A DNA stretch of 47,971 bases from Bacteroidaceae bacterium. GTDB taxonomy: Bacteria > Bacteroidota > Bacteroidia > Bacteroidales > Bacteroidaceae. The notes beneath the pieces are model-generated. The model did no database searches, was not told where the DNA came from, and saw only the letters and a program-made list of their open reading frames with translations. The stretch spans positions 1-47,971 of the forward strand of contig JAFZVN010000032.1 in NCBI GenBank assembly GCA_017617805.1, in the 5' to 3' direction. Of the stretch, positions 109 to 41,455 are shown one piece after another (within the stretch, counting starts at the first letter, position 1; each line of letters opens with the position of its first letter). A program made the position numbers and the translations under genes.

Positions 109-3100
109 TTACATGTCCATGAACGTGCGGAGTTGGGCGGCTCCGAGGTGGTTGATGTCGAGTTTGTTCACTTCGGAGAGATGGTGCTCTGCTTTCGCTC
201 TGTCGCCCATGCCGAGGTAGCCGAGGGCGAGCATGTAGTGGCAGTGGATGCGGTTCTGGAGGTCGAGGTCACCATCCCAAACGAGGAGGTCGGGCAGAGA
301 GACTGCGAAGTAGTCCATGGTGATGTGGTCGAAGAGGTGCTGCTTGCCGTAGTTGAGGAGCTTGTGGAAGAGTCCACGTGCCTTGTCCTCCTGCCCCAAT
401 GCCCGATAGCAGAGACCTGCATAGAAAATCTTGTCGGGCTTGGCATCGTTGTAGTACATGGCGGCAGCGGGTTCGGTAGGCCCTGCAGTCCCTTCCTCAT
501 AACGACCCAAGAAGTAGAGGATGTCGTTGTCTTGAGCACCTTGGAGTTTGCCTTCGCCGAGGGAGTGGGGGAAGGTGAGACACTCTGAGAGGAGGGAGAG
601 AAGACCTTCTCCCCAACCCTCCCCCGTAATGGGGAGGGAGTCCCTCCGGACAGAGAGGGTCTTCATTTTCTTTTTGGCTATTTCCAATCGGCACATCTGG
701 TACTGTCCGCTCACCTTGCCTTCGCCACCTTCCCATGGATGGAAGATGTGGTTGTCGATGATGGCTTTGGCTTCTTCGTGGCGACCGAGCAGGTTGAGCA
801 GGGTGACATGTTCGAGGATGAGGTCATCACGTTGGGCGACGAGGTGTGGCAGTGCCTCGTAGTTCTGCAGACGTTCGGCATGAGGCCGCTGGAGTTTCTT
901 GTAGAGCTGGTCGAGTTCCATGAAGATGCGAGCATCTGACTGGTCGAGGGTGAAGGCCAGTTCCATTTCCTGCAGGGCTTGTTCCTTGCTCCCTGCTCCT
1001 TGCCCTTTGTTATAATAGAGCAAGGCGAGGTTGCGATGGACGGTGGGGAAGGAGGGATCGAGCTGTTCAGACAGTTCCCAATATCGCTTGGCTTCGTCGT
1101 ACTGACGCTTGTCGTAGTAGAGGCATCCGAGGTAGTAAGGTGCTTTGGCTCCTTCGGGATGGAAATGGATGGCGGTTTTCAGTACCACGACATCTTCCAG
1201 ACGGTTGGGGAAGCAGCAGTAACTGTTCGCTTTTTCCGCTTCGGCAAAGCATGCCTTGGCCTCGTCGATAAGTCCTTGTTGAGCCTTGAAATAGCCGATA
1301 TAATAGAGTGTGAGGGGCGAGGTCTGTTGCTGCCTTTCAGCCACGGCAGGAAGGGTCAGCACATCGATGGCCTCTTGCCAGAGTCCAGCCTGGGCATAGT
1401 CGAGTGCTAGTTCGTGATAGTTATAGACGTTGCCATGCATCATCTCCACCATGTGGCTCAACACGGTCTCGTCTTGGGTGAGCAGGTGCTTCTCGAAGAG
1501 GATGCCGTAGTTGAAGTGGTCGAGTGGAAGTGATGCCTCGCACCAAGTGAGTGCTTCGTCGTTTCGCCCTAATTTCCGAAGGAGAGTCGCCTTCAATGCC
1601 CGTGCCTTGTGGTTGCAGGCGTTGAAGATGAGGCAACGGTTCAGTTCATCGAGGGCATCCTCATAGCGTGCTTCTGCCGTGCTGATACACGCGGCTTCGA
1701 AGTAGCCAGCATCTGCCCATGCCTTGTTCCATGTGGATTTCCAGAAGAGTTCATAAGCATCTCGTTGGCGATGTTGATATTTCAGTGTCAACGCCAAATT
1801 GAAGATCGCTTCTCCATCGTAGGGGTTGGGATTGCGTTTCTGCCAAATCTTCACCGCTTTATGTAGATAAGTCTCAGCCTTGTCGAAGCGTCCACGACGT
1901 AGGTACCAGAGTCCAGTCTGATTGAGGCAACGCACATCGTTGGGGTCACGGCGCAGGGCTTCCTCGTAGTAGTCGAGGGCTGACCAAGTAGCATGGCGAT
2001 ATTGCTCCAAGTGGAGGCCTGTGAGGTAGAGTTGGTCGTTGGTCTTGGTGTCCTGTGGCGAGAGAGCTGCTTCGGCAGCATCAGGGATAGGACGGATGTC
2101 ATCAGGTTCTGCCTCCCAAGTTAATAGAGGTGATGGATGAGTGGCGAGAGGTGAGAGGATGGTGAAGGTGAGGTCGGAAAGGGAAACGTTCAAACCCTCG
2201 ACCGAATGGGTGAAGACCTGGTCTGGGGAAAGGGTCACCAATTGGTTGTAATACTCTTTGCCTTGTTGGTCTCGTAGGATGAGACGAACTTCTTGCTTAG
2301 AGGTGGCAAGCACCTTGATGCGTACAGACAAATCTCTTGCTCCTTGCCCCTCGCCCCTCACTTCTTCTATATTCAAGATGAAGTCCTTGGAGGCTTGTTT
2401 CACGATGCCCAATTCGTGGTAGGGCATGAAGTATTGGGTGAACTGCTTTTCCTCGTAGGGCATGAGCCAAGTGAAGTCGGGCTGGTTCTCGGTATAGACG
2501 CCAGCCATGAGTTCGATGTAGGGTCGGAAGCCTGGACGGATGGAGCCCACAGATAAACCATCGGGCACAGGCGTTGGGGAGGAAGAGCCATCGGATGCAT
2601 CATCGGTGAGGTTCCTGTCCCAAGCTCTGCCAAAGTCGCCATTGCCCCATGTCCATTGCTTCTTGCCTGGGGAGAAATGGTGAGATGCCACGTGAAGCAT
2701 GCCGCCTTGGGTGTCGTTCTCGTAGCCACCTTCGAAGTCATATTTGGAGTTGACCGCCATGTAGGAGGTGGGCACAGGAATGTTCTTGTAGTTGGAGATA
2801 TCGACGCCAGCCGAGTAGTCCATCTTGTAGTAGGTGCCTGTGGCGATGGGGAAGGACGATACGGCTCGTTTGCCATGATCGAAGACCGCATTCACATCAG
2901 GTGGGAAGACGCTCTGGTAGGCATCGTTCACCTCGACAGCTGGATTTGCCCACCAGAGGAAGGTCTGAGGCAGAGGAGTGCGGTTTGACACACGTCCCTG
3001 AATCTCTAAATAGGCACAACCAGGACGGAGCGTGAAGCCAGCGGCTCCCTTCTGATGGAACATGCGCTCCATCTCGTTCACCCACACCGTCACGGAACCA

Positions 3101-3513: not shown

Positions 3514-3535
3514 ATTCTTGCTTGTTTTTTTCGTT

Positions 3536-4852
3536 TCAGTTTCCGACTAATTCATGCTCCAGTTCTTCGAGCGATTTTCCTTTGGTTTCAGGACAGCGTC
3601 TCCACAGGAAGATGAACGCACAGAGGCAAATCGTGCTGTAGATCCAGAAGGTGCCATAGGAACCCAGGGCTGCATTCATCGAGGGGAAGGAGAAGGTGAG
3701 TGTGCAACAGCCCACCCACAAGGCGAAGGTGCAGGTCGCCATCGCCACACCACGCACACGGTTGGGGAAGATTTCTGCGAGGAGCGTCCAAGTGACAGGC
3801 CCTAAGGTCATCGCATAGACAGAGATGGCAGCGACCACCAGACAAACCATCAGCACACCCTTCACTTCGAGGTAATAGCAGGTGCCGAGGGTGAGGTAGA
3901 TGAGTCCCAAACCTCCTGCACCAATCAGGATGAGCGTACGACGTCCCCAACGCTCGATGGTGTAGAGTGCCAAGATGGTGAACACCACATTGGCGATGCC
4001 GGTGATGACGATGTTGATGAACATGTCATTGACATCGAAGCCTGCACCCTTGAAGATTTCCTCTGCATAGTTGAAGATGACGTTGGTGCCGCACCACTGC
4101 TGGAAGACAGCAATGACAAGCCCCAAGAGGAGCACTTTGCGTAAGCCCCTTAGCCCCCGAAGGGGGAGAAATGGCAGGGTGCTGAACGATGGAGAGGCAT
4201 CGCGCAAGCCCTCCCCCTTTGGGGGCTGGGGGGCTCTCATGCTCAGATACACAGGACTTTCAGGAATGAAGAAAGCCAACAGCAGGAAGACTGCCGCTGG
4301 AACTGTCTCTGCCCAGAACATCCAACGCCAACCCCATTCGAGGTTCCAAGCCATATTGGTGGCATCGCTGACATCGCGAGCCAGCAGCATATTGACGATT
4401 TGTGCGGCAAGGATGCCCAACACGATGGTCATCTGATTGAGGCTTACCAAACGTCCACGAATATGGGCAGGAGAGACCTCGGCGATGTACATGGGTGAGA
4501 GGGCAGAAGCCACACCGATGCCGATGCCGCCAATGAAGCGGGCGATATTGAACAAGGTAAAGTCGTTGAACAGACCTGTCATGATGGCACTGGCTGTGAA
4601 CAGCACCGCAGCGGTGATCAGCAGTGGTTTGCGGCCATATTTGTCAGCCAATGCACCAGCCACCATCGCACCTATGAGACAGCCAATCAGCGCCGTACTC
4701 ATCGCCACCCCCTGCATCACAGGGTCGTTGGCAATTTGGAAAAACTCTTCGTAGAAAGGTTTTGCTCCGCCGATCACGACCCAATCATAGCCGAACAGGA
4801 GTCCACCCATGGCAGACACGGAGCAAATAAAGTAAAGGAACGATTTCTTCAT
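3536..4852 (-). CDS. MFS sugar:proton symporter, sugar-porter family
   Basis: 438 aa inner-membrane transporter resembling XylE/AraE; substrate unknown. Sugar-porter signatures are present: GALADKYGRK in the loop between helices 2 and 3, RFIGGIGIGVAS, PMYIAEVSPAHIRGR, PESPVYL after helix 6, FQQWCGTN in helix 7 and ETKGKSLEELE at the C-terminus. Shorter than usual for the family (roughly 460-490 aa). The helical cytoplasmic loop normally between PESP and helix 7 is mostly replaced by about 30 low-complexity residues encoded by an inverted-repeat insert (4144-4235). It heads a leftward unit with the DUF5107 gene. A clear -7 element sits at 4877-4885. Start is ATG at 4850-4852. Confidence 0.9.
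   Translation of the reverse strand: MKKSFLYFICSVSAMGGLLFGYDWVVIGGAKPFYEEFFQIANDPVMQGVAMSTALIGCLIGAMVAGALADKYGRKPLLITAAVLFTASAIMTGLFNDFTLFNIARFIGGIGIGVASALSPMYIAEVSPAHIRGRLVSLNQMTIVLGILAAQIVNMLLARDVSDATNMAWNLEWGWRWMFWAETVPAAVFLLLAFFIPESPVYLSMRAPQPPKGEGLRDASPSFSTLPFLPLRGLRGLRKVLLLGLVIAVFQQWCGTNVIFNYAEEIFKGAGFDVNDMFINIVITGIANVVFTILALYTIERWGRRTLILIGAGGLGLIYLTLGTCYYLEVKGVLMVCLVVAAISVYAMTLGPVTWTLLAEIFPNRVRGVAMATCTFALWVGCCTLTFSFPSMNAALGSYGTFWIYSTICLCAFIFLWRRCPETKGKSLEELEHELVGN
4144..4235. repeat. GC-rich inverted-repeat insert in the sugar porter gene
   Basis: Arms 4144-4168 and 4211-4235 (25 bp) are inverted copies with three mismatches, each of the form AGCCCC..AGCCCCC.AAGGGGGAG, separated by 42 bp. 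The arms resemble those of the recG insert (27295-27374). The insert stays in frame and encodes about residues 206-236 of the transporter. Confidence 0.85.
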
Positions 4853-4876
4853 GTTAGTATTGAATTAGTTCTGGGT

Positions 4877-4956: not shown

Positions 4957-7900
4957 TTACCTTTGTGCCATCGCTTCCAATACACTCAGCGCACCTTCCA
5001 TGGTGTGGATGCCCTTGATGAGGAGCGATTTCCGTTCCCCATCCCGCATGGTGCAACCCCTTCCTTGGGCTGTCACATAACTGAGCACTTTCGAGAAGGC
5101 ACGACTTTGGAAATAAGCATCTTCGAGTGCGAAGTAAAGAATCATGCGTCCCATCTTGAGCACCACCTTCTCAATGCCAAGACGTTGGGCTGACCATTTG
5201 ATGGGCATGACGGTGAGGAGCGATTCGCCCACAGGAGGAATAGGACCAAAGCGGTCGATGAGACGTTTCTTGTAATCCTCTAACTGCTGAGGCGAGGTGA
5301 AGGAATCCAGTTCGCGATAGAGGCTCATGCGTTCGCCGCTGCTGGGCACATACTCCTCTGGCAGGAACGCCTGGATGTCACTCTCGATATTGGTTTCTGT
5401 CACGAAATGCTCGCCGCTGATTTTTCCCTCTTCATCCTTGTCCTCATCGGCAAAAAGGTCGCTGAATTCGTTGTCTTTCAGTTCAGCCACAGCCTCGTTC
5501 AGAATCTTCTGATAGGTCTCATAGCCCAAATCAGTGATGAAGCCACTCTGTTCGGCTCCCAACATATTGCCTGCCCCTCGGATGTCGAGGTCTTGCATGG
5601 CGATGTGGATGCCACTGCCCAAGTCGCTGAAGTTCTCGACAGCTTGCAGACGGCGACGGGTCACATCGTTCAGGGCAGCCAATGGAGGTGCGATGAGGTA
5701 GCAGAAGGCTTTCCGATTGCCACGTCCCACACGTCCTCGCATCTGGTGAATGTCGGAGAGTCCGTAGTTTTGGGCGCTGTTGATGATGATGGTGTTGGCG
5801 TTGGGCACGTCGATGCCGTTCTCCACAATGGTGGTGGAGAGCATCACGTCGTAGTCGTAGTTCATGAAGTCGAGAATCACCTTCTCCAACTCCTGCGGAT
5901 TCATCTGTCCATGTCCTACGCACACGCGTGCATCAGGTACATATTTATGAATCATCTCCTCCAGCTCGTGCAGGTTGCTGATTTTGTTGTTCACGATGAA
6001 CACCTGTCCGTTGCGGCTCATCTCGAAGTTGATGGCCTCAGCGAAGATGTCGGGGGAGAAAGTATGTATCTCTGTCTGAATGGGATAGCGGTTGGGTGGC
6101 GGTGTCTGGATGATGGACAGGTCCCTGGCTCCCAAAAGTGAGAACTGCAAGGTGCGTGGGATGGGTGTGGCAGTCATGGTGAGGGTGTCCACATTCACTT
6201 TCATGCTGCGCAGCTTTTCTTTCGTCGATACACCAAACTTCTGTTCCTCGTCGATGATGAGGAGTCCCAAGTCCTTGAACTTCACCTGTTTGCCAATCAG
6301 CTTGTGGGTGCCGATGATGATGTCCACCTTTCCTTCCTTCAGGTCATCCAACACCTCTTTCGTGTCTTTGGGGGAGCGGGCTCTTGTGAGGTATTCCACT
6401 CTGACGGGAAACTCCTTGAGTCGTGAGGAGAACGTCTGGAAGTGCTGATAGGCCAATACGGTGGTAGGCACCATCACCGCCACTTGTTTGCCATCGGTGG
6501 CAGCCTTGAAAGCGGCACGTATCGCCACTTCGGTTTTGCCGAAGCCCACATCGCCACACACCAGTCTGTCCATCGGACGGGGTTTCTCCATGTCGGCCTT
6601 CACGTCTTGGGTGGCTCGGAGCTGGTCGGGGGTGTCTTCGTAGGTGAAGCTGGCCTCCAGTTCGTGCTGCATGTAGCTGTCCTTCGAATAGGCAAAACCT
6701 TTCTCTTTCAGACGGGCGGCATAGAGCAGGATGAGGTCGCGGGCGATGTCCTTCACCTTCGTCTTCACCTTCTCCTTCATGCGTTCCCACGCACCACCGC
6801 CAATCCTGTTCAACGTGGGTGGTTCACCCTCCTTGCCTTTGTATTTCGACACTTTGTGCAGGGCGTGGATGGAGACATAGACCACATCCTCGTTCTTGTA
6901 GATGATCTTGATCATCTCCTGCATCACATCGCCTTGAGGCACACGCACCAAACCTCCGAATCGTCCCACACCATGATCGATATGCACCACATAGTCGCCA
7001 ATCTCGAACTGCTGAATCTCTTTGAGGGTCAACGCCACCTTTCCTTGTCTGGCTTTGTCGCTCTTCAGATTGTATTTGTGGAAGCGGTCAAAGAGCTGGT
7101 GATCGGTGAAGAAGCACATCTTCAAGGTGTGGTCGATGAACCCTTCGTGGATGGCTTTGTTGACAGGCGTGAAACGGATGATGTCCGTTTCGGTTTTTGC
7201 CATCTCCTCGAAGATATCTTGCAAACGGTTGATTTGCTTCTCGCTGTCGGAGAAGATGCAGATTTGATAGCCCTCGTTGATCAGTCGATGGAACTCCTGA
7301 CTGACCAAGTCAAAGTTCTTGTGGAAGAGGGGTTGAGGAGTGGTGTTGAAGTGGAGAGAAGACCCTCTCTGTCCTTCGGACATCTCCCCCGTAATGGGGA
7401 GACCATCCGGGTTGTTTGTCTTTCCTTGTTTTAACTCCAGATGCTTGAACTCGATGATCTGCTTCTTGAAAGTTTCTTCGTCGATGATGAAGTTCTCTAC
7501 CAATGTCTCTTCATTCGTTTCTGCCTCTTTCTTAGCTTGATTCGAAAAACCTTCCTCATGAATCTGGGCAATCTTGTCGCACACATATGCCAAGCTCTGT
7601 GTCACGACCCATGTGTCTTTGGGTAGAAACTCCAGGAAGGAGATGTATTCAGTCTTGTGCTTGATTTCGGGCACGATGGTCATCCTCTCCATTTTCCCCT
7701 GACTCAACTGGCTCTGCACGTCAAACTGACGGATGCTGTCCACCTCATCGCCAAAAAAGTCGATGCGATAGGGCATATCTGAGGAGAACGAATACACATC
7801 CACGATGCTGCCTCTGACGGCAAATTGTCCTGGCTCATACACATAATCTGTCCGTTCAAATCCCAAGTCGAAAATTTGCTTCTCCAAGTCGTTGATGTCG

Positions 7901-9944: not shown

Positions 9945-10069
9945 TAAGTGAAAATTGAAAAGTGAAAAGTGAAAAATCTAAGTAACTCCCATCCGGATGG
10001 CAGGTAAAACAGATTTTTCACTTTTCACTCTTCACTTTTCACTTGTTATTTTTCACTTTTCACTTGTTT
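9945..10069. repeat. Palindromic-core repeat element, copy 2, with heptad arms
   Basis: Left arm of GTGAAAA-like units (9947-9980), palindrome CCATCCGGATGG (9989-10000), then a right arm from 10011 extended by several TTTTCAC/TTCACTT units to 10069. The centre is the reverse complement of the element at 18-87 with a few changes. It fills the whole space between two divergent promoters (9929-9937 and 10074-10082). Confidence 0.85.
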
Positions 10070-10073
10070 TTCG

Positions 10074-10082
10074 TACCTTTGC
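10074..10082 (+). promoter_or_regulatory. -7 promoter element, mtaB
   Basis: TACCTTTGC 20 bp before the mtaB start. The -33 region falls inside the TTTTCAC repeat arm of the adjacent element, and no canonical TTTG is present there. Confidence 0.75.
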
Positions 10083-10101
10083 ACCCAAACGCAAGATATT
10101 T

Positions 10102-11526
10102 ATGATAGACTCAAGCATATTGCAGGGAAAAAAGGCGGCTTACTTCACGTTGGGATGCAAGCTCAATTTTGCCGAAACCAGTACTGTGGCACAGGAGTTG
10201 ATGCGCTACGGAGTGACGAAAGCGGCGAAAGGTGAAGTGGCTGATTTGGTGGTGGTGAACACATGCAGCGTGACGGAAGTGGCTGACCACAAATGCCGTC
10301 AGGCGATACATCGTCTGGTGAAGCAGCACCCTGGTGCTTTCGTTGTGGTGACAGGTTGCTATGCCCAACTGAAACCACTGGAAATCATTGAGACGGAAGG
10401 CGTTGACCTTGTTGTGGGGAATGAGCAGAAGGGTCATATCATACCGATGATTCTTGAGAGGATGACTCAGACCCTCCCCTCACCCTCCCTGAATGGAGGG
10501 AGTGATATCTCTGCAAATGAGGAAACCGACGAACAAGGAAATTACCCCCTCCATTCAGGGAGGGTGAGGGGAGGGTCTATGCCTTTCTTCGGAGCTTGTT
10601 CTCGTGGGGATAGAACCCGTTATTTTCTCAAGGTGCAGGATGGCTGCAACTACTTCTGCACCTATTGCACCATTCCGATGGCACGTGGAAGGAGCCGCAA
10701 CGGAAGCATTGCCTCGATGGTGGAGCAGGCCAAGCAAGTGGCACAGGAAGGTGGTAAGGAGATTGTGATTACAGGCGTGAATATCGGCGACTTCGGACGT
10801 AGCACTGGGGAAACCTTCTTCGATTTGGTGAAAGCCTTGGATCAGGTGGAGGGAATCGAACGCTATCGCATCTCCAGCATCGAACCCAACCTCCTTACCG
10901 ATGAACTGATTGCCTATTGTGCCCAGTCAAGAGCTTTCATGCCCCACTTCCACATCCCCTTGCAGAGTGGTTCTGATGAGGTGCTGAAGCTCATGCATCG
11001 TAAGTACGACACAGCCCTTTTCCAACATAAGATTGAGACGATTCGTGGTGTCATGCCCGATGCCTTCATTGGGGTGGATGTGATTGTCGGCACACGTGGT
11101 GAGACTGCCGAGTTTTTCCAACAGGCGTACGATTTCATGGAGCGTGTCGATGTGTCGCAGTATCATGTGTTCTCCTACTCCGAACGTCCAGGCACCAAGG
11201 CTTTGGAGATTCCCCATGTGGTGACGCCGCAAGAGAAACATGAGCGCAGTCAGCGTGTCCTTGACCTCTCCGCACAGAAGACCCACGACTTCTATGCACG
11301 GTTCATTGGTACCACACGACCCGTCCTACTCGAACATGCATCTCCTCGCAAACCCTTCATGAATGGCTTCACCGACAACTACATCCGTGTGGAAGTGCCT
11401 AATCAACCCGACCTCGACAATCAGATGGTGCAGGTGAAATTAGGTGGGTTCAACAAAGAAGGCGATGCGTTGATAGGAAGAATTGAAAAATTGAAAGGTC
11501 GAAAAATTGAAAAATTGAAGGGTTGA
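10102..11526 (+). CDS. mtaB: tRNA t6A37 methylthiotransferase MtaB
   Basis: 474 aa radical-SAM enzyme that adds a methylthio group to t6A at tRNA position 37. Three MiaB-type N-terminal cysteines bind one FeS cluster: C19 in LGCKLN, C55 in NTCSVT, C86 in TGCYAQ. CNYFCTYC (C182, C186, C189) binds the radical-SAM cluster. A TRAM-like region closes the protein. ATG 10102 is chosen because upstream in-frame codons lie in the promoter and repeat element. Two oddities: a 110-bp perfect inverted repeat encodes about residues 123-159, just before the radical-SAM domain, and the last 14 residues (IEKLKGRKIEKLKG) are encoded by 8-bp tandem repeats that also supply the stop. The GT2 gene follows after 33 bp. 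Confidence 0.95.
   Translation: MIDSSILQGKKAAYFTLGCKLNFAETSTVAQELMRYGVTKAAKGEVADLVVVNTCSVTEVADHKCRQAIHRLVKQHPGAFVVVTGCYAQLKPLEIIETEGVDLVVGNEQKGHIIPMILERMTQTLPSPSLNGGSDISANEETDEQGNYPLHSGRVRGGSMPFFGACSRGDRTRYFLKVQDGCNYFCTYCTIPMARGRSRNGSIASMVEQAKQVAQEGGKEIVITGVNIGDFGRSTGETFFDLVKALDQVEGIERYRISSIEPNLLTDELIAYCAQSRAFMPHFHIPLQSGSDEVLKLMHRKYDTALFQHKIETIRGVMPDAFIGVDVIVGTRGETAEFFQQAYDFMERVDVSQYHVFSYSERPGTKALEIPHVVTPQEKHERSQRVLDLSAQKTHDFYARFIGTTRPVLLEHASPRKPFMNGFTDNYIRVEVPNQPDLDNQMVQVKLGGFNKEGDALIGRIEKLKGRKIEKLKG
10469..10578. repeat. In-frame perfect 32-bp inverted repeat in mtaB
   Basis: Arms 10469-10500 and 10547-10578 are exact reverse complements (32 of 32) around a 46-bp spacer. The arm starts AGACCCTCCCCTCACC and contains its own small palindrome CCTGAATGGAGG-like turn. 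The open frame continues through both arms and the spacer (TLPSPSLNGG ... PLHSGRVRGG). The arm start AGACCCTC resembles the AAGACCCTC end of the mfd, DUF5107 and GT2 copies. Confidence 0.93.
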
Positions 11527-11544
11527 AGGCTCGAAAAATTGAAG
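11481..11544. repeat. Eight 8-bp tandem units spanning the mtaB stop
   Basis: Eight consecutive octamers: AATTGAAA twice, GGTCGAAA, AATTGAAA, AATTGAAG, GGTTGAAG, GCTCGAAA, AATTGAAG. The first five and part of the sixth encode the C-terminal tail of MtaB and its TGA; the rest form the leader of the GT2 gene. Confidence 0.85.
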
Positions 11545-11559: not shown

Positions 11560-12633
11560 ATGAAGAAACTAGCAATTGTTATCCTGAACTGGAACGGTGC
11601 CGAGATGATGCGCCAGTATTTGCCCTCTGTGCTACAGAACAGCGTGGGCGAAGTGATTGTGGCAGATAATGCCTCCTCCGACGGCAGCGTGCCCATGTTG
11701 ATGAAGGAGTTTCCTGATGTGCCCCTGATCAAGTTCGACCAGAACTACGGATTTGCTGACGGATACAACAAGGCCTTGTCCCAGCTGTTTGGCTACGAAT
11801 ACTATATCCTGCTCAATTCCGATGTGGAGATCAGACAGAAGGATTGGGATGCGCCGCTCATTCAGTATATGGATACCCATCCTGATTGTGCCGCTTGCCA
11901 ACCCAAACTCTTGGCGTTGAAGACCCTCTCTGTCAACTCTCAACTCTCAACTCTCAACTCTTTCGAGTACGCAGGTGCAGCAGGTGGCTTCCTCGACAAA
12001 TATGGCTATCCTTTCTGTAGAGGTCGTGTGCTGGATACCATCGAGCAGGATGAGGGTCAGTACGATGAGATTGTTCCTCTGATGTGGGCAACGGGAGCTG
12101 CATTGATGATACGTGCCACTGATTGGTTGGCGAGTGGGGGATTGGACGCCCGTTTCTTTGCCCACATGGAAGAGATAGACCTTTGCTGGCGACTTCGCAC
12201 GATGGGCAAGAGCATCGTTTGCGTACCCCAGAGCCAAGCCTATCATCTGGGTGGTGGAAGCCTCAATCAGGGCAATCCCCGCAAGACTTTCCTCAACTTC
12301 CGCAACAACCTCATGATGCTCTACAAAAACCTGCCCGACAACGAACTGAACAGCGTGATGCGTATGCGTTGGTTCCTCGACTATCTGGCAGCCTTCCGAT
12401 TCTTCCTCAGTGGCGATTACCACAATGCCCATGCCACCTACAAGGCTCGTCATGCCTTCAACAAGGTTCGCAAAGACCTTCTTGCCGATCGTGTCCGCAT
12501 TGCCAAACTCCGCAAGGTAGATCGAGTGCCCGAACGCACCAACTTCTCCCTCCTTTGGCAATACTATTTGAAGGGAAAGAAAACCTTCTCAGCCCTTCGC
12601 CCGCTTCTTGACGCTGGGGCAGCCTCTTCTTGA
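11560..12633 (+). CDS. GT2-family glycosyltransferase, rhamnosyltransferase-like
   Basis: 357 aa. The N-terminal GT-A domain has VILNWNGAE, VIVADNASSDGS and a DxD-like LLNSDVEI near residue 90. WATGAALMIRATDW and HMEEIDLCWRLR match GT2 enzymes that add rhamnose or similar sugars to surface glycans. No transmembrane helix is obvious; probably acts at the cytoplasmic membrane face. Acceptor unknown. ATG 11560 is preferred to an upstream TTG at 11539 inside the octamer repeat. A repeat insert encodes KTLSVNSQLSTLNS (about residues 120-134), and the C-terminus (LLDAGAASS) runs into a 22-bp tandem repeat that provides the stop. Likely cotranscribed with mtaB. Confidence 0.85.
   Translation: MKKLAIVILNWNGAEMMRQYLPSVLQNSVGEVIVADNASSDGSVPMLMKEFPDVPLIKFDQNYGFADGYNKALSQLFGYEYYILLNSDVEIRQKDWDAPLIQYMDTHPDCAACQPKLLALKTLSVNSQLSTLNSFEYAGAAGGFLDKYGYPFCRGRVLDTIEQDEGQYDEIVPLMWATGAALMIRATDWLASGGLDARFFAHMEEIDLCWRLRTMGKSIVCVPQSQAYHLGGGSLNQGNPRKTFLNFRNNLMMLYKNLPDNELNSVMRMRWFLDYLAAFRFFLSGDYHNAHATYKARHAFNKVRKDLLADRVRIAKLRKVDRVPERTNFSLLWQYYLKGKKTFSALRPLLDAGAASS
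11919..11960. repeat. Shared 16-mer plus four TCAACTC heptads in the GT2 gene
   Basis: GAAGACCCTCTCTGTC (11919-11934) is identical to parts of the mfd and DUF5107 inserts. It runs into four perfect TCAACTC units (11933-11960). The whole is in frame. Confidence 0.85.
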
Positions 12634-12871: not shown

Positions 12872-14047
12872 ATGAAAAAGAAGACACTTGTTATCGTGAG
12901 CATTATCGTGGGCGTTTGTGCTCTTGGTATTATCAGTTCGTATTTGATTGACTGGCCTGTGGATACCAGTCAGACGAGTGGCGACATCGCAAAGTCTTCA
13001 AAGTTCTCACGCAAGACTGCGGAGGAGGGGCTCAGCAACATGCAGGAATTGATGCAGAATGATGAAGACTATAAGAACAGTATCGTTGTGGCTTACACAG
13101 TGATGCAGACTCGCACCAAACAGTTTGAAGCGCTGGTGGATATGTCGAAGGAAGTGGCAGGCGATATCAGCGTATATGAGCCTGTGCTCAAGGACATGGA
13201 GCAGGCGAAGAAGATTGCTGCCAATGTGCGTGGTCAGATGGAGGCTGCTGCCAAGGATATCGATGCTACGCTTGGTGGTGGAAATCCAGAGGATTTGGCG
13301 CAGAACACCAATAATGCGGCATTGGCATACTCCACGTTGCAGAAGCAGAATGATCTGGCTAACCGATTCATCGAGACGACGGACACATATCTGAAGGACA
13401 ACGCTGGTAGTGATCGCCTTAAGCTGGTGCGCGACCAGTGGGTGGACTATCAGAGGATGACTGCTGCCCTCAATCAGGATGAGAAGGCAAGTGAGGAATT
13501 GGAAAAGAAGGGATATACGCTCTCTTCTGAGAAAATCGCCTCCACGATGAACTCTTTTGACCCGAACAAGCAGATGGCTCTCGTGGGTGGTGCTGTTGTC
13601 AGCCGTTACTGTGGCTACAATTCTCCTCTGAATAATGGGCCAGCGTTAAATCAGACCATTGATATGGTTCTCGAAGCATCTCCTAAACTGAATCAAATTT
13701 TTGGACAAGAGATGCAAAATATGGATGTGAAACTGAAAAATGATGAAAGGTTGCACAACGACGCACAGCTTCAAAATGATGTAAGACTTCAAAACGATGT
13801 AAAGCTTCAAAATGATGCACAACTTCAAAACGATGTAAGACTTCGAAATGATATCACGCTGAAATCTGAAGTGTTTTTGCATGCCACAGATATTATGGTT
13901 TCTAACACTCCGAATTTGGTCCATTCATACGATGTGGCTATCTTCAGTAACCCTGTTTTACGCCAATCGGGAGTGCTCCATCAGGTGAACACACTGATTA
14001 CTGGTATGTCGGAAGGTGTCGCTAACCATGACATTGTATTGAAGTGA
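12872..14047 (+). CDS. Membrane-anchored coiled-coil protein with hexapeptide repeats
   Basis: 391 aa; no family recognised. An N-terminal hydrophobic helix (about 5-26) acts as anchor or uncleaved signal. A long helical, probably coiled-coil part follows to about 230. Residues about 290-330 hold seven tandem hexapeptides of the form L-Q-N-D-V/A-R/K/Q, encoded by 18-bp DNA repeats. The hexad spacing with V/A at the fifth position resembles a left-handed beta-helix coil, but Q replaces the usual small or acidic residue after Leu, so the fold is uncertain. The stop overlaps the GTG start of the next gene, making it the first member of a coupled three-gene unit. Most of the chain is predicted outside the cytoplasm. 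Confidence 0.8.
   Translation: MKKKTLVIVSIIVGVCALGIISSYLIDWPVDTSQTSGDIAKSSKFSRKTAEEGLSNMQELMQNDEDYKNSIVVAYTVMQTRTKQFEALVDMSKEVAGDISVYEPVLKDMEQAKKIAANVRGQMEAAAKDIDATLGGGNPEDLAQNTNNAALAYSTLQKQNDLANRFIETTDTYLKDNAGSDRLKLVRDQWVDYQRMTAALNQDEKASEELEKKGYTLSSEKIASTMNSFDPNKQMALVGGAVVSRYCGYNSPLNNGPALNQTIDMVLEASPKLNQIFGQEMQNMDVKLKNDERLHNDAQLQNDVRLQNDVKLQNDAQLQNDVRLRNDITLKSEVFLHATDIMVSNTPNLVHSYDVAIFSNPVLRQSGVLHQVNTLITGMSEGVANHDIVLK
13765..13854 (+). repeat. 18-bp tandem repeat encoding LQNDV-type hexapeptides
   Basis: Five clear 18-bp units alternate between CTTCAAAATGATG and CTTCAAAACGATG forms, giving a 36-bp higher-order period. More diverged units flank them. Close DNA similarity between units suggests recent expansion or copy-number change. 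Confidence 0.85.
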
Positions 14048-25579: not shown

Positions 25580-25676
25580 CTAAAAACTAAAAGTTTGCTA
25601 CTGCGAGAGTTGGTCAACAGCTGACTTACAAGTGCGGTAGCAAACTTTTAGTTTTTCACTTTTAGTTTTTAGTTTT
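25580..25676. repeat. Inverted-repeat element between convergent genes, likely terminator
   Basis: Perfect 20-bp arms (25582-25601 and 25637-25656) made of CTAAAAA/CTAAAAG heptads and GTTTGCTAC, with a 35-bp loop. TTTTTAG heptads continue on the right to about 25676. It lies between the convergent nucleoside-hydrolase-like gene and aroB. The A- and T-rich flanks would suit a two-way terminator. Confidence 0.82.
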
Positions 25677-26887: not shown

Positions 26888-29038
26888 GTGAACATACTGA
26901 GCCAAGACATCAAGTATCTGCAAGGAGTGGGACCTAATCGTGCGCTTCTGCTTGCCAACGAACTCGGCATCAAGACCGTGGGCGACCTGCTTGCGTACTA
27001 TCCTTATAAATATGTGGATCGTAGCCGCATCTATCAGATTCGGGAGATTGATGGGACGATGCCCTACGTGCAGCTGTGTGGCCAAATCTTTTCGTTCGAC
27101 ACCATAGGTGAGGGACGCAACAAACGGCTTATCGCCCATTTCACGGATGGCACGGGAAGCATCGACCTCGTCTGGTTTCAAGGAATCAAATACGCCGCCA
27201 AGAACTACGACTGCCGTAAGGACTATATCGTCTTTGGCAAACCCACCGTGTTCAATGGCAAGATTCAAATTGCACATCCTGAGATTGAGACACAAGCCCC
27301 CCTCCTGTCCCCCCAGGGGGGGATGAACCATCCGGATGGGACTCCTCCCCCTTGGGGGAGGTTGGGAGGGGGCTCTTCTTTCCGCCCTTCCTACAACACC
27401 TCTGAAAAGATGAAGCGGAGTGGACTCAATTCTGGCGCTATTGCCAAGTTGACGGCCAACATGTTCAAGCTCCTCAAAGAGCCTTTGCCAGAGACACTTC
27501 CTCCCTACATCGTGCAGCAGCATCACCTGATGGCCTACGACGATGCTGTGCGCAATATCCACTATCCTACGTCACCCGATGCTTTGCGTCATGCGCAACT
27601 GCGGTTGAAGTTTGAGGAACTCTTCTACGTGCAGCTCAACATCCTCCGCTATGTGAAAGACCGCCAGCTGCGCTACAAAGGCATCGTGTTCAATACTATT
27701 GGCGAATACTTCAACGGCTTCTTCTACCATCATCTGCCTTTCCAACTGACAGAGGCGCAGAAGCGTGTCATCCGCGAAATCCGAGCCGACATGAAGTCGG
27801 GCAAGCAGATGAACCGTCTGCTCCAAGGTGATGTGGGCAGTGGCAAGACCCTTGTAGCGCTGATGGTGGCGCTCATTGCCATCGACAACGGCTGTCAGGC
27901 TTGCATCATGGCGCCTACTGAAATTCTTGCTGAACAGCATCTTGCCACCCTCCGAGACTTGTTGGGCGATCTGCCTGTGCGGGTCGAACTGCTCACAGGA
28001 ACGATAAAAGGTAAGAAACGTACGGCTATATTCGAGGGGCTTGTGACAGGCGACATCCACATCCTTGTGGGCACCCATGCTGTGATTGAAGACAATGTGC
28101 TCTTCGACAAGTTGGGATTGGTCATCATCGATGAGCAGCACCGTTTCGGTGTGGCGCAAAGAGCTAAGCTGTGGATGAAGAATGCTGTGCCTCCTCATGT
28201 GCTCGTGATGACAGCAACGCCCATTCCTCGCACTTTGGCCATGACCCTCTATGGCGACCTCGATGTGTCCATCATCGACGAACTGCCACCAGGCCGCAAA
28301 CCAATCCGCACAGTCCACATGTTCGATGCTCATCGCCAGCGCATCTACCAGTTGATGAACAGAGAGCTCGACCTCGGCCGTCAGATTTATATCGTCTATC
28401 CACTCATCAAGGAAACGGAAAAACTCGACCTCAAGGATTTGGAGGCAGGGTTTGAGGAGATCCAACGTGCCTTCCCCAACCACAAGGTGGGTAAGGTGCA
28501 TGGCAAGATGAAACCAGCCGACAAGGATGCGGAGATGCAGCGATTTGCCAACCACGAGACCCACATCCTCGTCTCCACCACTGTCATCGAAGTGGGTGTG
28601 AATGTGCCCAATGCCTCCGTCATGATCATCGAGAATGCTGAACGCTTCGGACTCAGCCAGTTGCATCAGTTGCGGGGCAGGGTAGGGCGTGGTGCCGACC
28701 AGAGCTATTGTGTGCTCGTCACCAAGTTTGAGATTGGCGAGACCACCCGCAAGCGCATTCAGGTGATGGTCGATACTACCGATGGTTTTGAGATAGCAGA
28801 GCAAGACCTCAAGCTTCGTGGCCCTGGCGACCTCGAAGGCACCCAGCAGTCAGGCATGGCCTTCGACCTCAAGATTGCCAACCTTGCCCGTGATGGTCAA
28901 ATCCTCAACATCGCACGAGAGGCAGCCCAAGATGTCATCACCTCCGACCCAGAAGAGCGCAATCCCCAGAATGACATCCTCTGGCGTCGCCTTCGTGAAC
29001 TTCGCAAGAGCAACATCAACTGGGGGGCCATCAGTTGA
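26888..29038 (+). CDS. recG: ATP-dependent DNA helicase RecG
   Basis: 716 aa. RecG drives fork regression and branch migration during recombination and repair. The wedge/OB domain spans about 1-250. The motor has Walker A GDVGSGKTLVAL (314-325), IIDEQHRFGV, TATPIPRTLAMT, STTVIEVGVNVPNA and QLRGRVGRG. GTG at 26888 is taken as start because it gives the standard N-terminus (LSQDIKYLQGVGP) and no ATG fits. Residues about 136-163 (APLLSPQGGMNHPDGTPPPWGRLGGG) are a repeat-encoded insert between the OB fold strands and the segment RPSYNTSEKMK that relatives also have. Divergent from aroB. Confidence 0.96.
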   Translation: MNILSQDIKYLQGVGPNRALLLANELGIKTVGDLLAYYPYKYVDRSRIYQIREIDGTMPYVQLCGQIFSFDTIGEGRNKRLIAHFTDGTGSIDLVWFQGIKYAAKNYDCRKDYIVFGKPTVFNGKIQIAHPEIETQAPLLSPQGGMNHPDGTPPPWGRLGGGSSFRPSYNTSEKMKRSGLNSGAIAKLTANMFKLLKEPLPETLPPYIVQQHHLMAYDDAVRNIHYPTSPDALRHAQLRLKFEELFYVQLNILRYVKDRQLRYKGIVFNTIGEYFNGFFYHHLPFQLTEAQKRVIREIRADMKSGKQMNRLLQGDVGSGKTLVALMVALIAIDNGCQACIMAPTEILAEQHLATLRDLLGDLPVRVELLTGTIKGKKRTAIFEGLVTGDIHILVGTHAVIEDNVLFDKLGLVIIDEQHRFGVAQRAKLWMKNAVPPHVLVMTATPIPRTLAMTLYGDLDVSIIDELPPGRKPIRTVHMFDAHRQRIYQLMNRELDLGRQIYIVYPLIKETEKLDLKDLEAGFEEIQRAFPNHKVGKVHGKMKPADKDAEMQRFANHETHILVSTTVIEVGVNVPNASVMIIENAERFGLSQLHQLRGRVGRGADQSYCVLVTKFEIGETTRKRIQVMVDTTDGFEIAEQDLKLRGPGDLEGTQQSGMAFDLKIANLARDGQILNIAREAAQDVITSDPEERNPQNDILWRRLRELRKSNINWGAIS
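27295..27374. repeat. In-frame insert with CCATCCGGATGG core in recG
   Basis: Imperfect GC-rich inverted arms (27295-27322 and 27344-27374, each beginning or ending AGCCCCC) enclose the palindrome CCATCCGGATGG at 27328-27339, the same core as at 47-58 and 9989-10000. The arms resemble those of the sugar porter insert. Frame stays open. Confidence 0.87.
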
Positions 29039-35718: not shown

Positions 35719-36770
35719 TGGTAGTTGTTGCGATAGATTCTTTCAAAGGTTGTCTGACCTCTCAAGAGGCTAATCAGGCAGCGGCGGAGGGGATCAGAAG
35801 GGTTCGTTCTGATGCGGAGGTGGTGCAGATACCTGTCAGCGATGGTGGCGAGGGTTTCCTGGAGGCATTCCATGCAGCCATCGGAGGTGAGAGGGTGGAA
35901 GTGGAAGTTTGCGACCCATTGATGCGACCTGTCAAGGCAAGGTATCTGCTTCAGGGCAAAAGGGCTGTCATAGAGATGGCACAAGCTAGCGGTCTCACCT
36001 TGCTCTCGGCAGCGGAACGGAATCCGATGTTGGCAACGAGCTATGGCACGGGACAACTGGTGGCAGATGCTGTCAGAAGAGGGGCAAGCCATATCATCGT
36101 GGGACTTGGTGGAAGCGCGACCAGCGATGCGGGTGTGGGGATGCTTCATGCCCTTGTGGACAGCTTCGCCAAGAACGGAATCTGGGAGGATATGGAAGAA
36201 CTGAAGAATGTGCGCTTCACCATCGCCTCAGATGTCAAAAATCCTCTTTGTGGCATGCAGGGTGCCGCCTATGTTTTCGCTCCACAAAAAGGAGCTACCC
36301 CTGAGATGGTTCGGCAATTGGACGAGCGGGCAAGACAGTTTGCAGAGGAGTCAGCCAAGCGTTTTGGCTATGACCGTCAAGAGATGCCTGGTGCAGGAGC
36401 GGCTGGAGGTTTGGGCTATGCCTTTCTGCAATATCTGAATGCTGAGTGTCGCTCTGGCATCGACTTGTTGCTTGAGACCATCGACTATGAGAAGCTGGTC
36501 AAGGATGCCGATCTTGTCGTCACTGGCGAAGGTTCTGCCGACCGCCAGACGCTGATGGGCAAACTTCCGATGGGCATCCTCCAACATTCGGGCGACACGC
36601 CAGTGTGTCTGATAGCAGGTCGGATCGGCGACAAGGATGAATTGTTGAATGCAGGCTTTGCCCGTCTGGAATGCATCAACCCTGACGGCATCTCTCTCTC
36701 CGAAGCCATGCGGAAAGAGGTGGCAACACAAAACATCATCGAGACCGTCGGCCGTCTGGTGAAAGAATAA
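35715..36770 (+). CDS. Glycerate kinase, GarK/GlxK family
   Basis: 351 aa cytoplasmic enzyme phosphorylating glycerate to phosphoglycerate. IDSFKGCLTS, PVSDGGEGF, VGLGGSATSDAGVGML, GAGAAGGLGYAF and TGEGSADRQTLMGKLP match the type-1 family. Slightly shorter than the usual 370-380 aa. ATG overlaps the stop of the secreted protease gene (ATGA), an odd pairing for a metabolic kinase, so coupling may be a matter of shared promoter only. Confidence 0.94.
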   Translation: MMVVVAIDSFKGCLTSQEANQAAAEGIRRVRSDAEVVQIPVSDGGEGFLEAFHAAIGGERVEVEVCDPLMRPVKARYLLQGKRAVIEMAQASGLTLLSAAERNPMLATSYGTGQLVADAVRRGASHIIVGLGGSATSDAGVGMLHALVDSFAKNGIWEDMEELKNVRFTIASDVKNPLCGMQGAAYVFAPQKGATPEMVRQLDERARQFAEESAKRFGYDRQEMPGAGAAGGLGYAFLQYLNAECRSGIDLLLETIDYEKLVKDADLVVTGEGSADRQTLMGKLPMGILQHSGDTPVCLIAGRIGDKDELLNAGFARLECINPDGISLSEAMRKEVATQNIIETVGRLVKE

Positions 36771-36797
36771 TAATGGAATAAATAATACAGGTAGAAC

Positions 36798-38813: not shown

Positions 38814-38849
38814 CCATTCGTCACAGAATCGTGCAGAATATCCCAAAAG

Positions 38850-38882
38850 TTTGGTGGAATGGGATGAAGAACGTACCTTTGC
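38850..38882 (+). promoter_or_regulatory. Promoter of the alpha/beta hydrolase operon
   Basis: TTTG at 38850-38853, exactly 20 bp, TACCTTTGC at 38874-38882. A textbook match for the phylum; start 38 bp downstream. Confidence 0.82.
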
Positions 38883-38920
38883 AAACGAAAATTGAATTCA
38901 TATAAATTTGGACTGTCAAT

Positions 38921-39799
38921 ATGAAAAGAACTGTATTATATGTGTTATTCGTGCTGTTGCTGGCAGGCTGTGGCAGCCAGCCGCAGACGCTTAGTGAATT
39001 GAAGTCTGAATACATCACTATCGACGATAGTATTCGCGTACATTATAAGATATGGAATGGCCTTGCAAATGCCAAGACCATTTGTTTCGTTCACGGCTTT
39101 GGCTGTGACATGAACACCTGGGAGAAGCAGTTCGAGGCTTTCCGTGATGAGAAAGACCTGCGACTTGTATTCATCGATCTGCCTGGCTACGGGCAGAGTG
39201 ACAAACCCCACGTGGATTATACGCTCGACTTCTTTGCCCATGCCATTGATGAAGTGTTGAAGGCAAACAGAATCCAAGATGCCATCTTTGTAGGTCATAG
39301 CCTTGGCACGCCCGTATGTCGTCAGACGCTGATGGCAACTGATCACAAAGGTGCTTTGGTGGATGTCGATGGAGTGTATTGTTTCTACGATGGCACAGAG
39401 ACGCCAGAGTACGTTGAAGCTGTCAATCAGTTCGGCCACGCCTTCGACGGTCCAGAATGCCGTGAGGTTATCGCGGGTTTCGTATCGTCATTGGCTGGTA
39501 AGGAGACACCTCAGGAGATCAACGACTATGCCATGTCTGTGATGCCCGAGACGCCTCAGTATGTAGCATCGAGCACGATGCAACACCTTGTGGAGAGGAA
39601 ATGGTGGTCGAATCACCAGATTTCTCTGCCAGTAATGGTCATCTGCACACAGAACAGTGGACTCGATCCAGACAACAAGCAGAAGATGGAGCGTCTGTAC
39701 CCCAACCTCGACTATACGGAACTGACCACTTGCGGACACTTCATTCACATGGAGCAACCAGAGAAGTTCAACGACAAACTGAAGAATTTTATCAAATGA
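38921..39799 (+). CDS. Alpha/beta hydrolase lipoprotein
   Basis: 292 aa with lipobox LLLAGCGS (Cys about 17). Alpha/beta-hydrolase fold: oxyanion region CFVHGFGCDMNTW, nucleophile elbow VGHSLGTP, acid in a late strand near LDPDN, and His in CGHFIHMEQPEKF. Resembles general esterases or peroxidase-like hydrolases; substrate unknown. It overlaps the following flavoprotein gene by 4 nt (ATGA). Confidence 0.88.
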   Translation: MKRTVLYVLFVLLLAGCGSQPQTLSELKSEYITIDDSIRVHYKIWNGLANAKTICFVHGFGCDMNTWEKQFEAFRDEKDLRLVFIDLPGYGQSDKPHVDYTLDFFAHAIDEVLKANRIQDAIFVGHSLGTPVCRQTLMATDHKGALVDVDGVYCFYDGTETPEYVEAVNQFGHAFDGPECREVIAGFVSSLAGKETPQEINDYAMSVMPETPQYVASSTMQHLVERKWWSNHQISLPVMVICTQNSGLDPDNKQKMERLYPNLDYTELTTCGHFIHMEQPEKFNDKLKNFIK

Positions 39800-40368
39800 A
39801 CATACTGATTATAAATGGAAGCCCACGGAAGAAAGGCCTGATTTCGCAGATGCTTGGCATCATGCAGGAAGAAGTAAAGAATAGAGGCGACAAGGTGCAG
39901 ATGGTTTTTACCAATGACCTCAACATTAAACCTTGTATCGCTTGTATGGTCTGCAGGACTAAAAGCAAGTGTGTGTTGGACGAAGATGACTCTCAGCGGG
40001 TGTTGAAGATGATGCAAGAGGCAGATGCCATCATCATGGGTGCTCCCTGTTATTGGGGCAATATTCCAGGACAAATGAAACTGTTGTTCGACCGCATTGT
40101 TTATGGCATGATGCGCGACACACCCCGTTTTCCTGAGCCACTGATGAAAGGCAAGAAGTGCATTCTCGTGAGCACCTGCACCACACCTTGGCCTTGGAAC
40201 GTCTGGTTCAACCAATCACATGGTGCCATCCGTGCCCTTCGAGAGATTTGCCGTTATTCCGGTTTCAAGATTGTTGCCACCATCGAACGGGGCGGTACTG
40301 TAATGCACCCAGAACTATCAGAGAAAGATAAGAATAAATGCCGCAAGGCAATCAAAAAAATCGCATAA
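39796..40368 (+). CDS. Iron-sulfur flavoprotein-type NADPH-dependent FMN reductase
   Basis: 190 aa flavodoxin-like fold. GSPRKKGLI binds FMN phosphate; CIACMVCRTKSKC is a Cx2Cx2Cx5C motif seen in iron-sulfur flavoproteins. GAPCYWGNIPGQMKLLFDR is the second flavin loop. ATG 39796 overlaps the hydrolase stop; a longer frame from 39601 lies inside that gene and is out of register with it. A relative is at 46434-46964. The zinc-ribbon gene starts 3 bp later. Confidence 0.9.
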   Translation: MNILIINGSPRKKGLISQMLGIMQEEVKNRGDKVQMVFTNDLNIKPCIACMVCRTKSKCVLDEDDSQRVLKMMQEADAIIMGAPCYWGNIPGQMKLLFDRIVYGMMRDTPRFPEPLMKGKKCILVSTCTTPWPWNVWFNQSHGAIRALREICRYSGFKIVATIERGGTVMHPELSEKDKNKCRKAIKKIA

Positions 40369-40371
40369 AAG

Positions 40372-40647
40372 ATGGAACAAACAATCAAATTCTGTCAGAG
40401 TTGCGGAATGCCGCTCACAGAGAATGTCCAAGGTACCAATGCCGACGGAAGCAAGAGTGAAGAGTATTGCAACTACTGCTACCAAGATGGCAAGTTCACC
40501 ACCGAATGTACGATGGAGGAGATGGCAGGGTTCTGCTCACAGTTTGTGGATGAATACAACAAGCACACAGGACAGAACCTGAGTCGTGAGGAGTATAGGA
40601 AAGTGCTTCTCCAGTTCTATCCCTCTTTGAAGCGTTGGGATAAGTAG
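40372..40647 (+). CDS. Small putative zinc-ribbon protein
   Basis: 91 aa. FCQSCGMPL and YCNYCYQDGKF supply two CxxC pairs, matching the putative zinc-ribbon family found near enzymes and regulators in many bacteria. Likely cytoplasmic. Last gene of the operon with the hydrolase and flavoprotein; its stop is 7 bp from the end of the convergent LytTR regulator gene. Confidence 0.87.
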   Translation: MEQTIKFCQSCGMPLTENVQGTNADGSKSEEYCNYCYQDGKFTTECTMEEMAGFCSQFVDEYNKHTGQNLSREEYRKVLLQFYPSLKRWDK

Positions 40648-40654
40648 TGGTGGT

Positions 40655-41455
40655 TTACGAATCCAACCAGCGTTTGACAGTGGCGACTTTGTCTTTGCTG
40701 ACGATGATTTCCTCGTCGGGGGCGGCAGTCATGTGGATGCGCATCTTGCCAAGGAAATAGGTGGAGAGTTTCTGCACAGCGACGGCGCTGATGATAAATT
40801 GACGGTTCACACGCATAAACCGCTGCGGATCGAGTTGGCTCTCCACTTCTTCGAGCGTCATATTCAGGGTGTGGTATTTGCCCTGAAGGGTGCAGAGGCG
40901 TACCACACCGTCGCGGATGGTGATGTGGCTCACTTCGTTAACGGGGATAATCAAGTATTCATCACTACGATGGGGGATGAGGAAACGCTCACGATAGCGG
41001 ATGGACTGGCTTTTGACTGATTCAAGCAACTGGGCGATGGCATCGGTAGTTGACAATTGATTCATCGTATCTTTAGCACGCTTGGCTTGCCAAGAATTGA
41101 CAGTTGACAGTTTCTGAACTTTTGCAAGTGCGGCATGAAGCTCGTCGCTGTCGATGGGTTTCAGCAGATAGTCAAGGCTGTTGAAGTGGAAGGCTTGCAC
41201 AGCGTATTGGTCATAGGCGGTAGTGAAGATGACGGGAATGGTCTCTGGCACTGTTCGCAACGATTCGAAGCTGAGTCCGTCGCCCAACTGGATGTCGCTC
41301 AGTATCAGGTCAACATCGTTGTGTGCGCCATCAGCAAAGAACGCCTTCACCTCGGCATTGCTGGCACATACGCCAACAATCTCATGCTCGCCTTCAAGCA
41401 TTCTCTTCAGGCGGTCGGCGTTGCTTTGTTCGTCTTCTATAATCAGTATGTTCAT
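40655..41455 (-). CDS. LytTR-family response regulator
   Basis: 266 aa. Receiver domain (1-113) with acidic EDE, phospho-acceptor Asp54 in ILSDIQLGDG, TTAYDQYA and the LKPI lysine. LytTR DNA-binding domain from about 165 (FLIPHRSDEYLIIPVNEVSHI ... FMRVNRQFIIS). The linker has KLSTVNSWQAKRAKDTMNQLSTT, encoded by TTGACAG-type heptads and a CTTGG..CCAAG hairpin, probably a repeat insertion. ATG 41455 is preferred to GTG 41458. Follows the histidine kinase gene by 12 bp; the two form a pair. Confidence 0.94.
   Translation of the reverse strand: MNILIIEDEQSNADRLKRMLEGEHEIVGVCASNAEVKAFFADGAHNDVDLILSDIQLGDGLSFESLRTVPETIPVIFTTAYDQYAVQAFHFNSLDYLLKPIDSDELHAALAKVQKLSTVNSWQAKRAKDTMNQLSTTDAIAQLLESVKSQSIRYRERFLIPHRSDEYLIIPVNEVSHITIRDGVVRLCTLQGKYHTLNMTLEEVESQLDPQRFMRVNRQFIISAVAVQKLSTYFLGKMRIHMTAAPDEEIIVSKDKVATVKRWLDS
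41050..41110. repeat. Heptads and hairpin in the linker of the LytTR regulator gene
   Basis: TTGACAA (41050-41056), then hairpin CTTGGCTTGCCAAG (41081-41094), then TTGACAG twice (41097-41110). The same heptads form the spacer at 20226-20253. Confidence 0.68.

Follow-up and report, generated by a model that had tools for sequence, protein, structure and literature searches.

Relation to known palindromic elements

In the literature consulted, palindromic elements within protein-coding sequences are described chiefly from the Rickettsiales, with scattered intragenic repetitive extragenic palindromes (REPs) elsewhere (PMC10969869, PMC3767692, PMC3733652). Rickettsia and Wolbachia palindromic elements (RPEs and WPEs) are about 100 to 150 bp long, fall into several families, and encode a conserved peptide, many of them lying in-frame in genes unrelated to one another, repair genes among them (PMC10969869, PMC3767692, PMC3733652), and a WPE and an RPE-4 occupy the same region of one gene (PMC3767692). 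REPs tagged with GTAG or CGTC are short hairpins of 20 to 40 bp, mostly intergenic, which form inverted dimers and are also found within uvrA, uvrB, and further repair genes; the CGTC repeats are reported from five phyla, including Bacteroidetes, without a dedicated transposase (PMC3733652). Here we describe palindromic elements of four families, designated A, R, B, and P, that encode in-frame segments of conserved genes of a Bacteroidaceae bacterium, including mtaB, recG, and mfd. The stretch of DNA analyzed (the window; 47,971 nucleotides of contig JAFZVN010000032.1, assembly GCA_017617805.1) is part of a host genome of 2.145 Mb in 92 contigs. Its closest named relatives are for the most part records of uncultured rumen Prevotellaceae or Bacteroidales, as well as Bacteroidaceae.

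A preliminary description of the window had likened these segments to RPEs built of different units, and this likeness is supported, since the elements are dispersed, palindromic, and in-frame in unrelated genes. Families R and B are shorter (about 65 to 85 nt) than RPEs, and the host belongs to the Bacteroidales of another phylum, not to the Rickettsiales. The element ends are AGACCC/GGGTCT or AAGCCC/GGGCTT, which may set them apart from the RPE families. The A and R consensus sequences also lack at their ends the CGTC tag described in PMC3733652. Moreover, unrelated families and remnants occur here at the same linkers. The elements share with REPs the form of short hairpins with intragenic copies (PMC3733652). 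However, neither the A nor the R consensus has GTAG or CGTC at an end, and GTAG is found only inside the A hairpin.

Cyanobacterial small dispersed repeats (SDRs) are short palindromic cores embedded in the heptamer arrays of short tandemly repeated repetitive sequences (STRRs). The intergenic H elements described below have the same architecture, but their core also turns up in R, the C-rich element found in coding sequences. Families A and R resemble miniature inverted-repeat transposable elements in having terminal inverted repeats and in being too short to encode a transposase; target duplication was not noticed at the compared sites, where native sequence was lost instead. A scan of the window against Rfam at gathering scores gave zero matches. 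Among the papers listed in a literature search, judged by title and abstract opening and with subscription papers mostly missing, none concerned these families in Bacteroidetes. The elements are best read as working like RPEs and intragenic REPs in another phylum, probably with exchange at permissive linkers. They occur here in a gut lineage outside the phylum of Rickettsia and within many housekeeping enzymes, and dozens of related species can be compared. This opens to testing the long-standing question of how selfish DNA persists within genes, and whether it provides new protein linkers.

Repeat-encoded segments in seven genes of the window

Orthologues were compared at the repeat segment in 14 relatives for mtaB, 12 for mfd, 20 for the GT2 gene, 12 for the LytTR regulator gene, and 29 other genomes for recG, as well as at 19 loci for the sugar porter gene (of which L376 gave a neighboring gene instead) and 14 loci for the DUF5107 gene (of which L403 gave an unrelated open reading frame [ORF], leaving 13 usable). 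All seven of these genes, which the preliminary description had named, carry a repeat-encoded in-frame segment, and some orthologues have no segment or are differently filled. At the level of sequence, the observation is confirmed, and the window frame is open in every one of the seven genes by orthologue comparison, as had been stated. The open frames in housekeeping genes suggest that the host proteins tolerate the inserts. The inserts of four proteins lie in linkers, as had been proposed, namely between Pfam domains in MtaB (UPF0004, residues 12 to 106; insert, about 123 to 159; Radical_SAM, 177 to 345), RecG (wedge to 136; insert, about 136 to 165; DEAD from 288), Mfd (UvrB_inter to 230; insert, about 312 to 333; RID from 450), and the LytTR regulator (receiver to 111; insert, about 117 to 137; LytTR from 167).

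Repeats do encode the segments, but they form two classes and not one kind. The first comprises C/G-rich palindromic elements of about 65 to 125 nt, i.e., families A, R, B, and P in mtaB, recG, mfd, the porter gene, and the DUF5107 gene. The family A element of mtaB (positions 10469 to 10578, plus strand; QTLPSPSLNGGSDISANEETDEQGNYPLHSGRVRGGS) has 32-nt arms that are complementary at 32 of 32 positions. The family R element of recG (27293 to 27380, plus strand; QAPLLSPQGGMNHPDGTPPPWGRLGGGSSF) is centered on CCATCCGGATGG. Family B is represented in mfd (7357 to 7420, minus strand; TNNPDGLPITGEMSEGQRGSS) and in the DUF5107/TPR gene (599 to 664, minus strand; KTLSVRRDSLPITGEGWGEGLL), where the B copy of genome G012 is longer and the site in G010 is uninterrupted. 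The family P element of the sugar porter gene (4143 to 4237, minus strand) encodes a segment that we take to be the central cytoplasmic loop of Sugar_tr members. A collagen-like GIPGIPGISGISGKPG repeat is found at the same place of the porter loop in locus L383 of another species (G014).

The second class consists of tandem heptamers, namely a TCAACTC array in the GT2 gene (11933 to 11961, plus strand; encoding VNSQLSTLNS) and heptamer remnants CTGTCAACTGTCAATTC ... TCAATTGTCAACT, with the unit CTGTCAA, in the LytTR regulator linker (41048 to 41110, minus strand). The claim that the segments are absent from the normal family sequence stands in part. Some relatives have a plain linker, but a repeat-like segment differing in length or sequence is common at the GT2 site (8 of 8 close relatives, L016 to L023) and the LytTR site (7 of 8, L351 to L358). 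The GT2 hinge elsewhere holds element A (L016), heptamer-like repeats (L017 to L019), or other C-rich segments (L020 to L022). The preliminary description also listed, as a finding that would speak against it, distant orthologues with the same segment in conserved, nonrepetitive form, and none was seen among the relatives compared.

Replacement of native linkers and shared insertion sites

The segments had been described as insertions. They are in-frame, but they have mostly replaced a native linker and were not simply added to it. Compared with the native orthologue, the net length change at the printed mtaB, recG, and MurF-Alr anchors ranges from −30 to +96 nt and is a multiple of three, as the length check proposed earlier would have it; it differs from the element length because the elements mostly replace native linker. 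In seven of the 14 mtaB relatives (L018, L019, and L021 to L025), a plain linker (MTGAHTVKTADIK and variants) stands in place of the 37 element-coded residues of the window, L016 carries the same element as the window, and L017, L020, and L026 to L029 carry other variable sequence. At least 18 of the 29 recG relatives share one native linker type (..ENAPEHLKAQARTTGNLFEE..PTVFKGLCPSYN), which is replaced by R in the window and by A in a close relative, G040 (93% identical). Other recG linkers consist partly of heptamer-like repeats (L098, L103, and L123) or of other C-rich segments (L110, L124, and L125). At the filled DUF5107 site, native bases are likewise lost.

Different families occupy the same site in several genes. 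One site of MurF-Alr holds R at five loci, A in two genomes, and a P-like element in G040, and 13 extracted loci are without an element (42 to 63 nt); 10 of the 30 loci were not extracted by the search pattern. The CTP synthase gene of G030 contains A, and that of G043 contains R; in a glycosyltransferase, judged by eye, one species has A exactly where another has R. Some sites also hold remnants. The A copy of L199 is preceded by GGAAGCCCCC, which by eye matches the left terminus that R has there, and the A copy of L262 is followed by GGGTTGGGGAGAGGGTC, which matches the right end of B. The multicopy dispersal of the elements, the replacement of native linker, and the presence of different families at the same sites are what the preliminary description missed.

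Between two species, G012 (L392, filled) and G010 (L396, empty), DUF5107 identity is 86.7% left of the site and 99.4% right of it. This jump places a recombination breakpoint at the element. As a separate observation made by eye, the left element ends (GAGA or GAAG) match the same bases in the native orthologues of recG, MurF-Alr, mfd, and DUF5107. The match might be microhomology, a lead weakened by the difference between the species compared and by mtaB, which does not fit.

Dispersal across genomes

Copies of the elements were sought in 45 genomes of the same genus. Family A has matches in 22 of them, including 39 in G030 (both strands of the palindrome counted), and family R has matches in 31. 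Across the family, R occurs in at least 25 of 301 sampled genomes and in at least 5 of 30 genera, with no more than three candidates scored per genome. Within the genus, A and R copies in unrelated genes share about 77% to 100% DNA identity. Four A copies lie within 21 kb in L016 (two in mfd, one in mtaB, and one in the GT2 gene), sharing one frame and one orientation, and G030 has a copy that does not differ from that of L016. As far as comparison between genomes can tell, this distribution demonstrates mobility over evolutionary time.

The hosts include RsgA, UvrA, MutS2, CTP synthase, RNase H1, arginyl-tRNA synthetase, SpoU, UbiE, RlmN, TrpA, TruA, and MurF-Alr. Of the 20 ORFs scanned, 19 match a family and L227 matches none; among the hosts, L220 (major facilitator superfamily) falls below the Pfam cutoff and several others fall below NCBIfam equivalog cutoffs. 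For annotators and modelers, the warning is that the encoded residues stem from recent DNA elements and are not family features.

In 353,763 bases sampled from the host genome, 34 inverted-arm structures with at least 14 paired bases were found, several of which are ordinary terminator-like hairpins, versus none in one first-order Markov control. ORFs of at least 150 amino acids (aa) cover 90.6% of this sample and contain 14 of the 18 A-, R-, B-, or P-like places, some of these matches being just 29 to 44 nt long, and 9 of the 43 heptamer-period arrays, including the doubtful one upstream of mtaB. In more distant relatives (66 mtaB loci, L030 to L095; 1,194,268 bases), 11 in-ORF inverted structures were found. 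By eye, only that of L043, located in mtaB, resembles the present elements in being composite and C-rich; the others are mostly terminator-like hairpins in doubtful ORFs.

Reading frames and selection on the encoded segments

By script, 38 of 44 sampled family A copies lie in ORFs, 37 of the 38 in one frame and orientation. Inspection raises the share to 39 of 43, L199 being added (in frame in murF-alr) and L209, a match of 74% identity, being excluded. Of the four remaining copies, three (L198, L260, and L261) fall between genes and one (L267) is placed at a gene's 3′ end. For family R, the script placed 33 of 37 copies in ORFs, and the count rises to 36 of 37 because three copies lie in a short DUF59-like gene; comparison with orthologues puts at least one script-called host ORF (L277:1856) on the wrong strand. 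In R. conorii, nearly half of 44 RPEs are in ORFs (PMC10969869), a smaller share than that of R or A here. In single genomes, 16 of 19 family A copies of G030 lie in ORFs by our own count, with one further copy (C55:57830) not separated by the script. Among the 21 of 29 family R matches listed for G043, 18 of 20 insertions lie in ORFs, with one uncertain and one intergenic. Of four weaker A matches of G043, L308 (in the opposite orientation) and L311 lie in ORFs, L309 is intergenic, and L310 is unclear.

Coding density in the window is 93.7%, and A has one usable frame of six. Under a random insertion model, 71% of surviving A copies would be genic with every protein position tolerant and 20% with one position in ten tolerant. 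The respective probabilities of the observed counts are 0.002 and 3e-23 for all A copies, 0.16 and 3e-9 for A in G030, and 0.33 and 2e-7 for the 18 of 20 R insertions. Either insertion prefers sites that are already licensed, or copies between genes disappear.

Among 35 in-ORF A copies, synonymous changes number 115 (99.8 expected), nonsynonymous changes 210 (216.9 expected), and stop-creating changes 1 (9.2 expected). The inner part of A is under mild constraint (117 nonsynonymous changes versus 139.3 expected). R copies sit in either orientation and use more than one frame; any given frame of the six is free of stops in 29 to 34 of the 37 copies. Judging from these substitution counts, the family A pattern is a survival filter, mainly of stop avoidance, and not a sign of peptide function.

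Origin and spread of the elements

The segments of mtaB, recG, mfd, the porter, and DUF5107 are probably small nonautonomous mobile palindromes swapped into permissive linkers, accompanied by heptamers probably grown by slippage. Families A, R, B, and P would be several small palindromic mobile DNAs of about 65 to 125 nt that code for no enzyme and have C-rich ends (e.g., CAGACCCTCCCC..GGGGAGGGTCTG or AAGCCCCCC..GGGGGCTT). A genic copy would survive if the frame used is free of stops, the length change is divisible by three, and the copy sits in a permissive inter-domain linker or loop, and loss of native linker would accompany or follow the landing. An occupied linker may then become a site for later landing or recombination; the mutual replacement of unrelated families would follow from such occupied linkers receiving later elements. 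Heptamer arrays may grow in the same linkers, probably via slippage. We infer the route (transposition or copy-paste recombination), the hairpin intermediates, the order of replacement, and the mobilizing enzyme. A stronger version, in which the palindromes are mobile DNA specialized for coding sequences and spread mainly by exchange with the prior occupant of a permissive linker, appears rather unlikely. If it is true, inter-domain linkers of essential enzymes are shared docking sites, and element turnover, not protein selection, sets the linker sequence.

Several observations weigh against the mobile-palindrome reading. Genes are not the sole home of the elements, since four A copies (L198, L260, L261, and, more weakly matching, L309) and one R copy (L237) lie entirely between genes. 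Many copies are orthologous between sister species and are therefore not independent events. Element-end 11-mers speak for the reading in that they lie within 60 nt of 8 of 71 in-ORF copies versus 33 of 1,337 control positions (Fisher P = 7e-4), but the ends were chosen after the data were seen, and some of the eight matches are same-family ends near a second copy, for which tandem duplication is possible. No strain-level pair of empty and filled sites with a target duplication was found, the junctions compared being from different species. The stems are near-invariant, both sides having changed in some sequence at 3 of 29 A pairs and 2 of 20 R pairs. Covariation is thus of little support for the structure, and compensatory pairing as its proof was rejected for too few double changes.

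A candidate mobilizer comes from an alternative that we consider possible but doubtful, in which the elements are REPs or REP doublets forming hairpins (REPINs) moved by diverged HUH (Y1) transposases resembling the REP-associated tyrosine transposases (RAYTs). An example of such a protein (G000:C52:12045-13097; 351 aa) matches NCBIfam REP_Tyr_transpos (E = 1.1e-10), though at 41.6 bits, under the cutoff of 80, and its match to Pfam Y1_Tnp is weak. RAYT-like relatives occur in 38 of the 45 genomes, and A or R is found in 30 of these 38 and in one of the seven others (Fisher P = 0.002), an association confounded by kinship and completeness; copy number has a Spearman correlation of 0.29 with both RAYT score and completeness. 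Against this alternative, G019 has A and R matches and zero RAYT-like match, and in an arm scan of the RAYT-like loci the gene was not flanked by an A- or R-type palindrome, the B-type elements being at least 700 nt away (L177 and L185) and an H element more than 1 kb away (L181). The RAYT-like protein is therefore a weak candidate. Ectopic homologous recombination or gene conversion between copies, with new copies arising mainly at occupied, licensed linkers, is likewise a tentative explanation. The shared sites and remnants, the DUF5107 breakpoint, and the excess of A in ORFs at full tolerance despite one usually usable frame fit it. However, the distinct A sites, about 26 when counted by eye, demand new landings too, the breakpoint is a single case that may reflect a tract ending at heterology, and the genic excess of G030 is not significant at full tolerance.

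Two further explanations fare worse. Native low-complexity linkers evolving by slippage and compositional bias, without mobile DNA, would fit the heptamer arrays of GT2, LytTR, and some RecG linkers, whose length varies between species, but slippage cannot yield sequences of 80 to 125 nt that are about 77% to 100% identical in unrelated genes of several genomes. For A and R this account is refuted by these copies, and as an explanation of the whole it is very improbable, although it is the better account for the heptamers. Selection of the encoded peptides for a function in the host protein, as a tag or regulated linker, could explain the single frame and orientation of in-ORF A copies and the mild inner constraint. 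We judge it highly improbable, since nonsynonymous changes over the whole element are at chance level, R uses both orientations and more than one frame, and hosts and segments vary between sister species.

Other repeats of the window

The H class is mainly intergenic and consists of inverted GTGAAAA heptamer arms flanking CCATCCGGATGG, the sequence that is also the center of R; this core occurs 15 times in the 2.145-Mb genome, versus 0 for a reversed-pattern control. One H element, probably intergenic, lies upstream of mtaB (9946 to 10065), and another with the same core and arms is intergenic downstream of the DUF5107 gene (13 to 92). The TTTTCAC array at 10015 to 10084 is probably intergenic because MtaB, judging by its relatives, probably starts at 10102, where 13 of the 14 have Met. 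A further mtaB array (11477 to 11543) concerns only the 3′ end.

The DUF5107 gene has two further variable linkers on the minus strand. The low-complexity linker at 2328 to 2367 (EEVRGEGQGARDL) is much shorter in most of the 13 usable relatives, and the linker at 2125 to 2154 (SPLATHPSPL) has a similar segment, SPLSPCSSPL, in G035 (L399). An 18-nt tandem repeat at 13724 to 13852, encoding (LQNDVK)n-like residues, lies inside a 391-aa ORF (12872 to 14047).

An intergenic palindrome at 25582 to 25656 has another core (TTTGCTAC..GTAGCAAA), and similar copies of its family (core TTTGCTACCGC..GCGGTAGCAAA) are found at L149 (11272 to 11384) and L162 (8365 to 8477). RAYT-like genes elsewhere have their own palindromic segments of the GCTGCAAC..GTTGCAGC type in the matched region (L173, 1913 to 1983; L185, 2102 to 2182; L186, 1415 to 1491). 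In the host-genome sample (L146 to L165, L139, and the window), GTGTGTCCGGCTCATC and neighboring 12-mers occur 7 to 9 times each and possibly represent another dispersed repeat.

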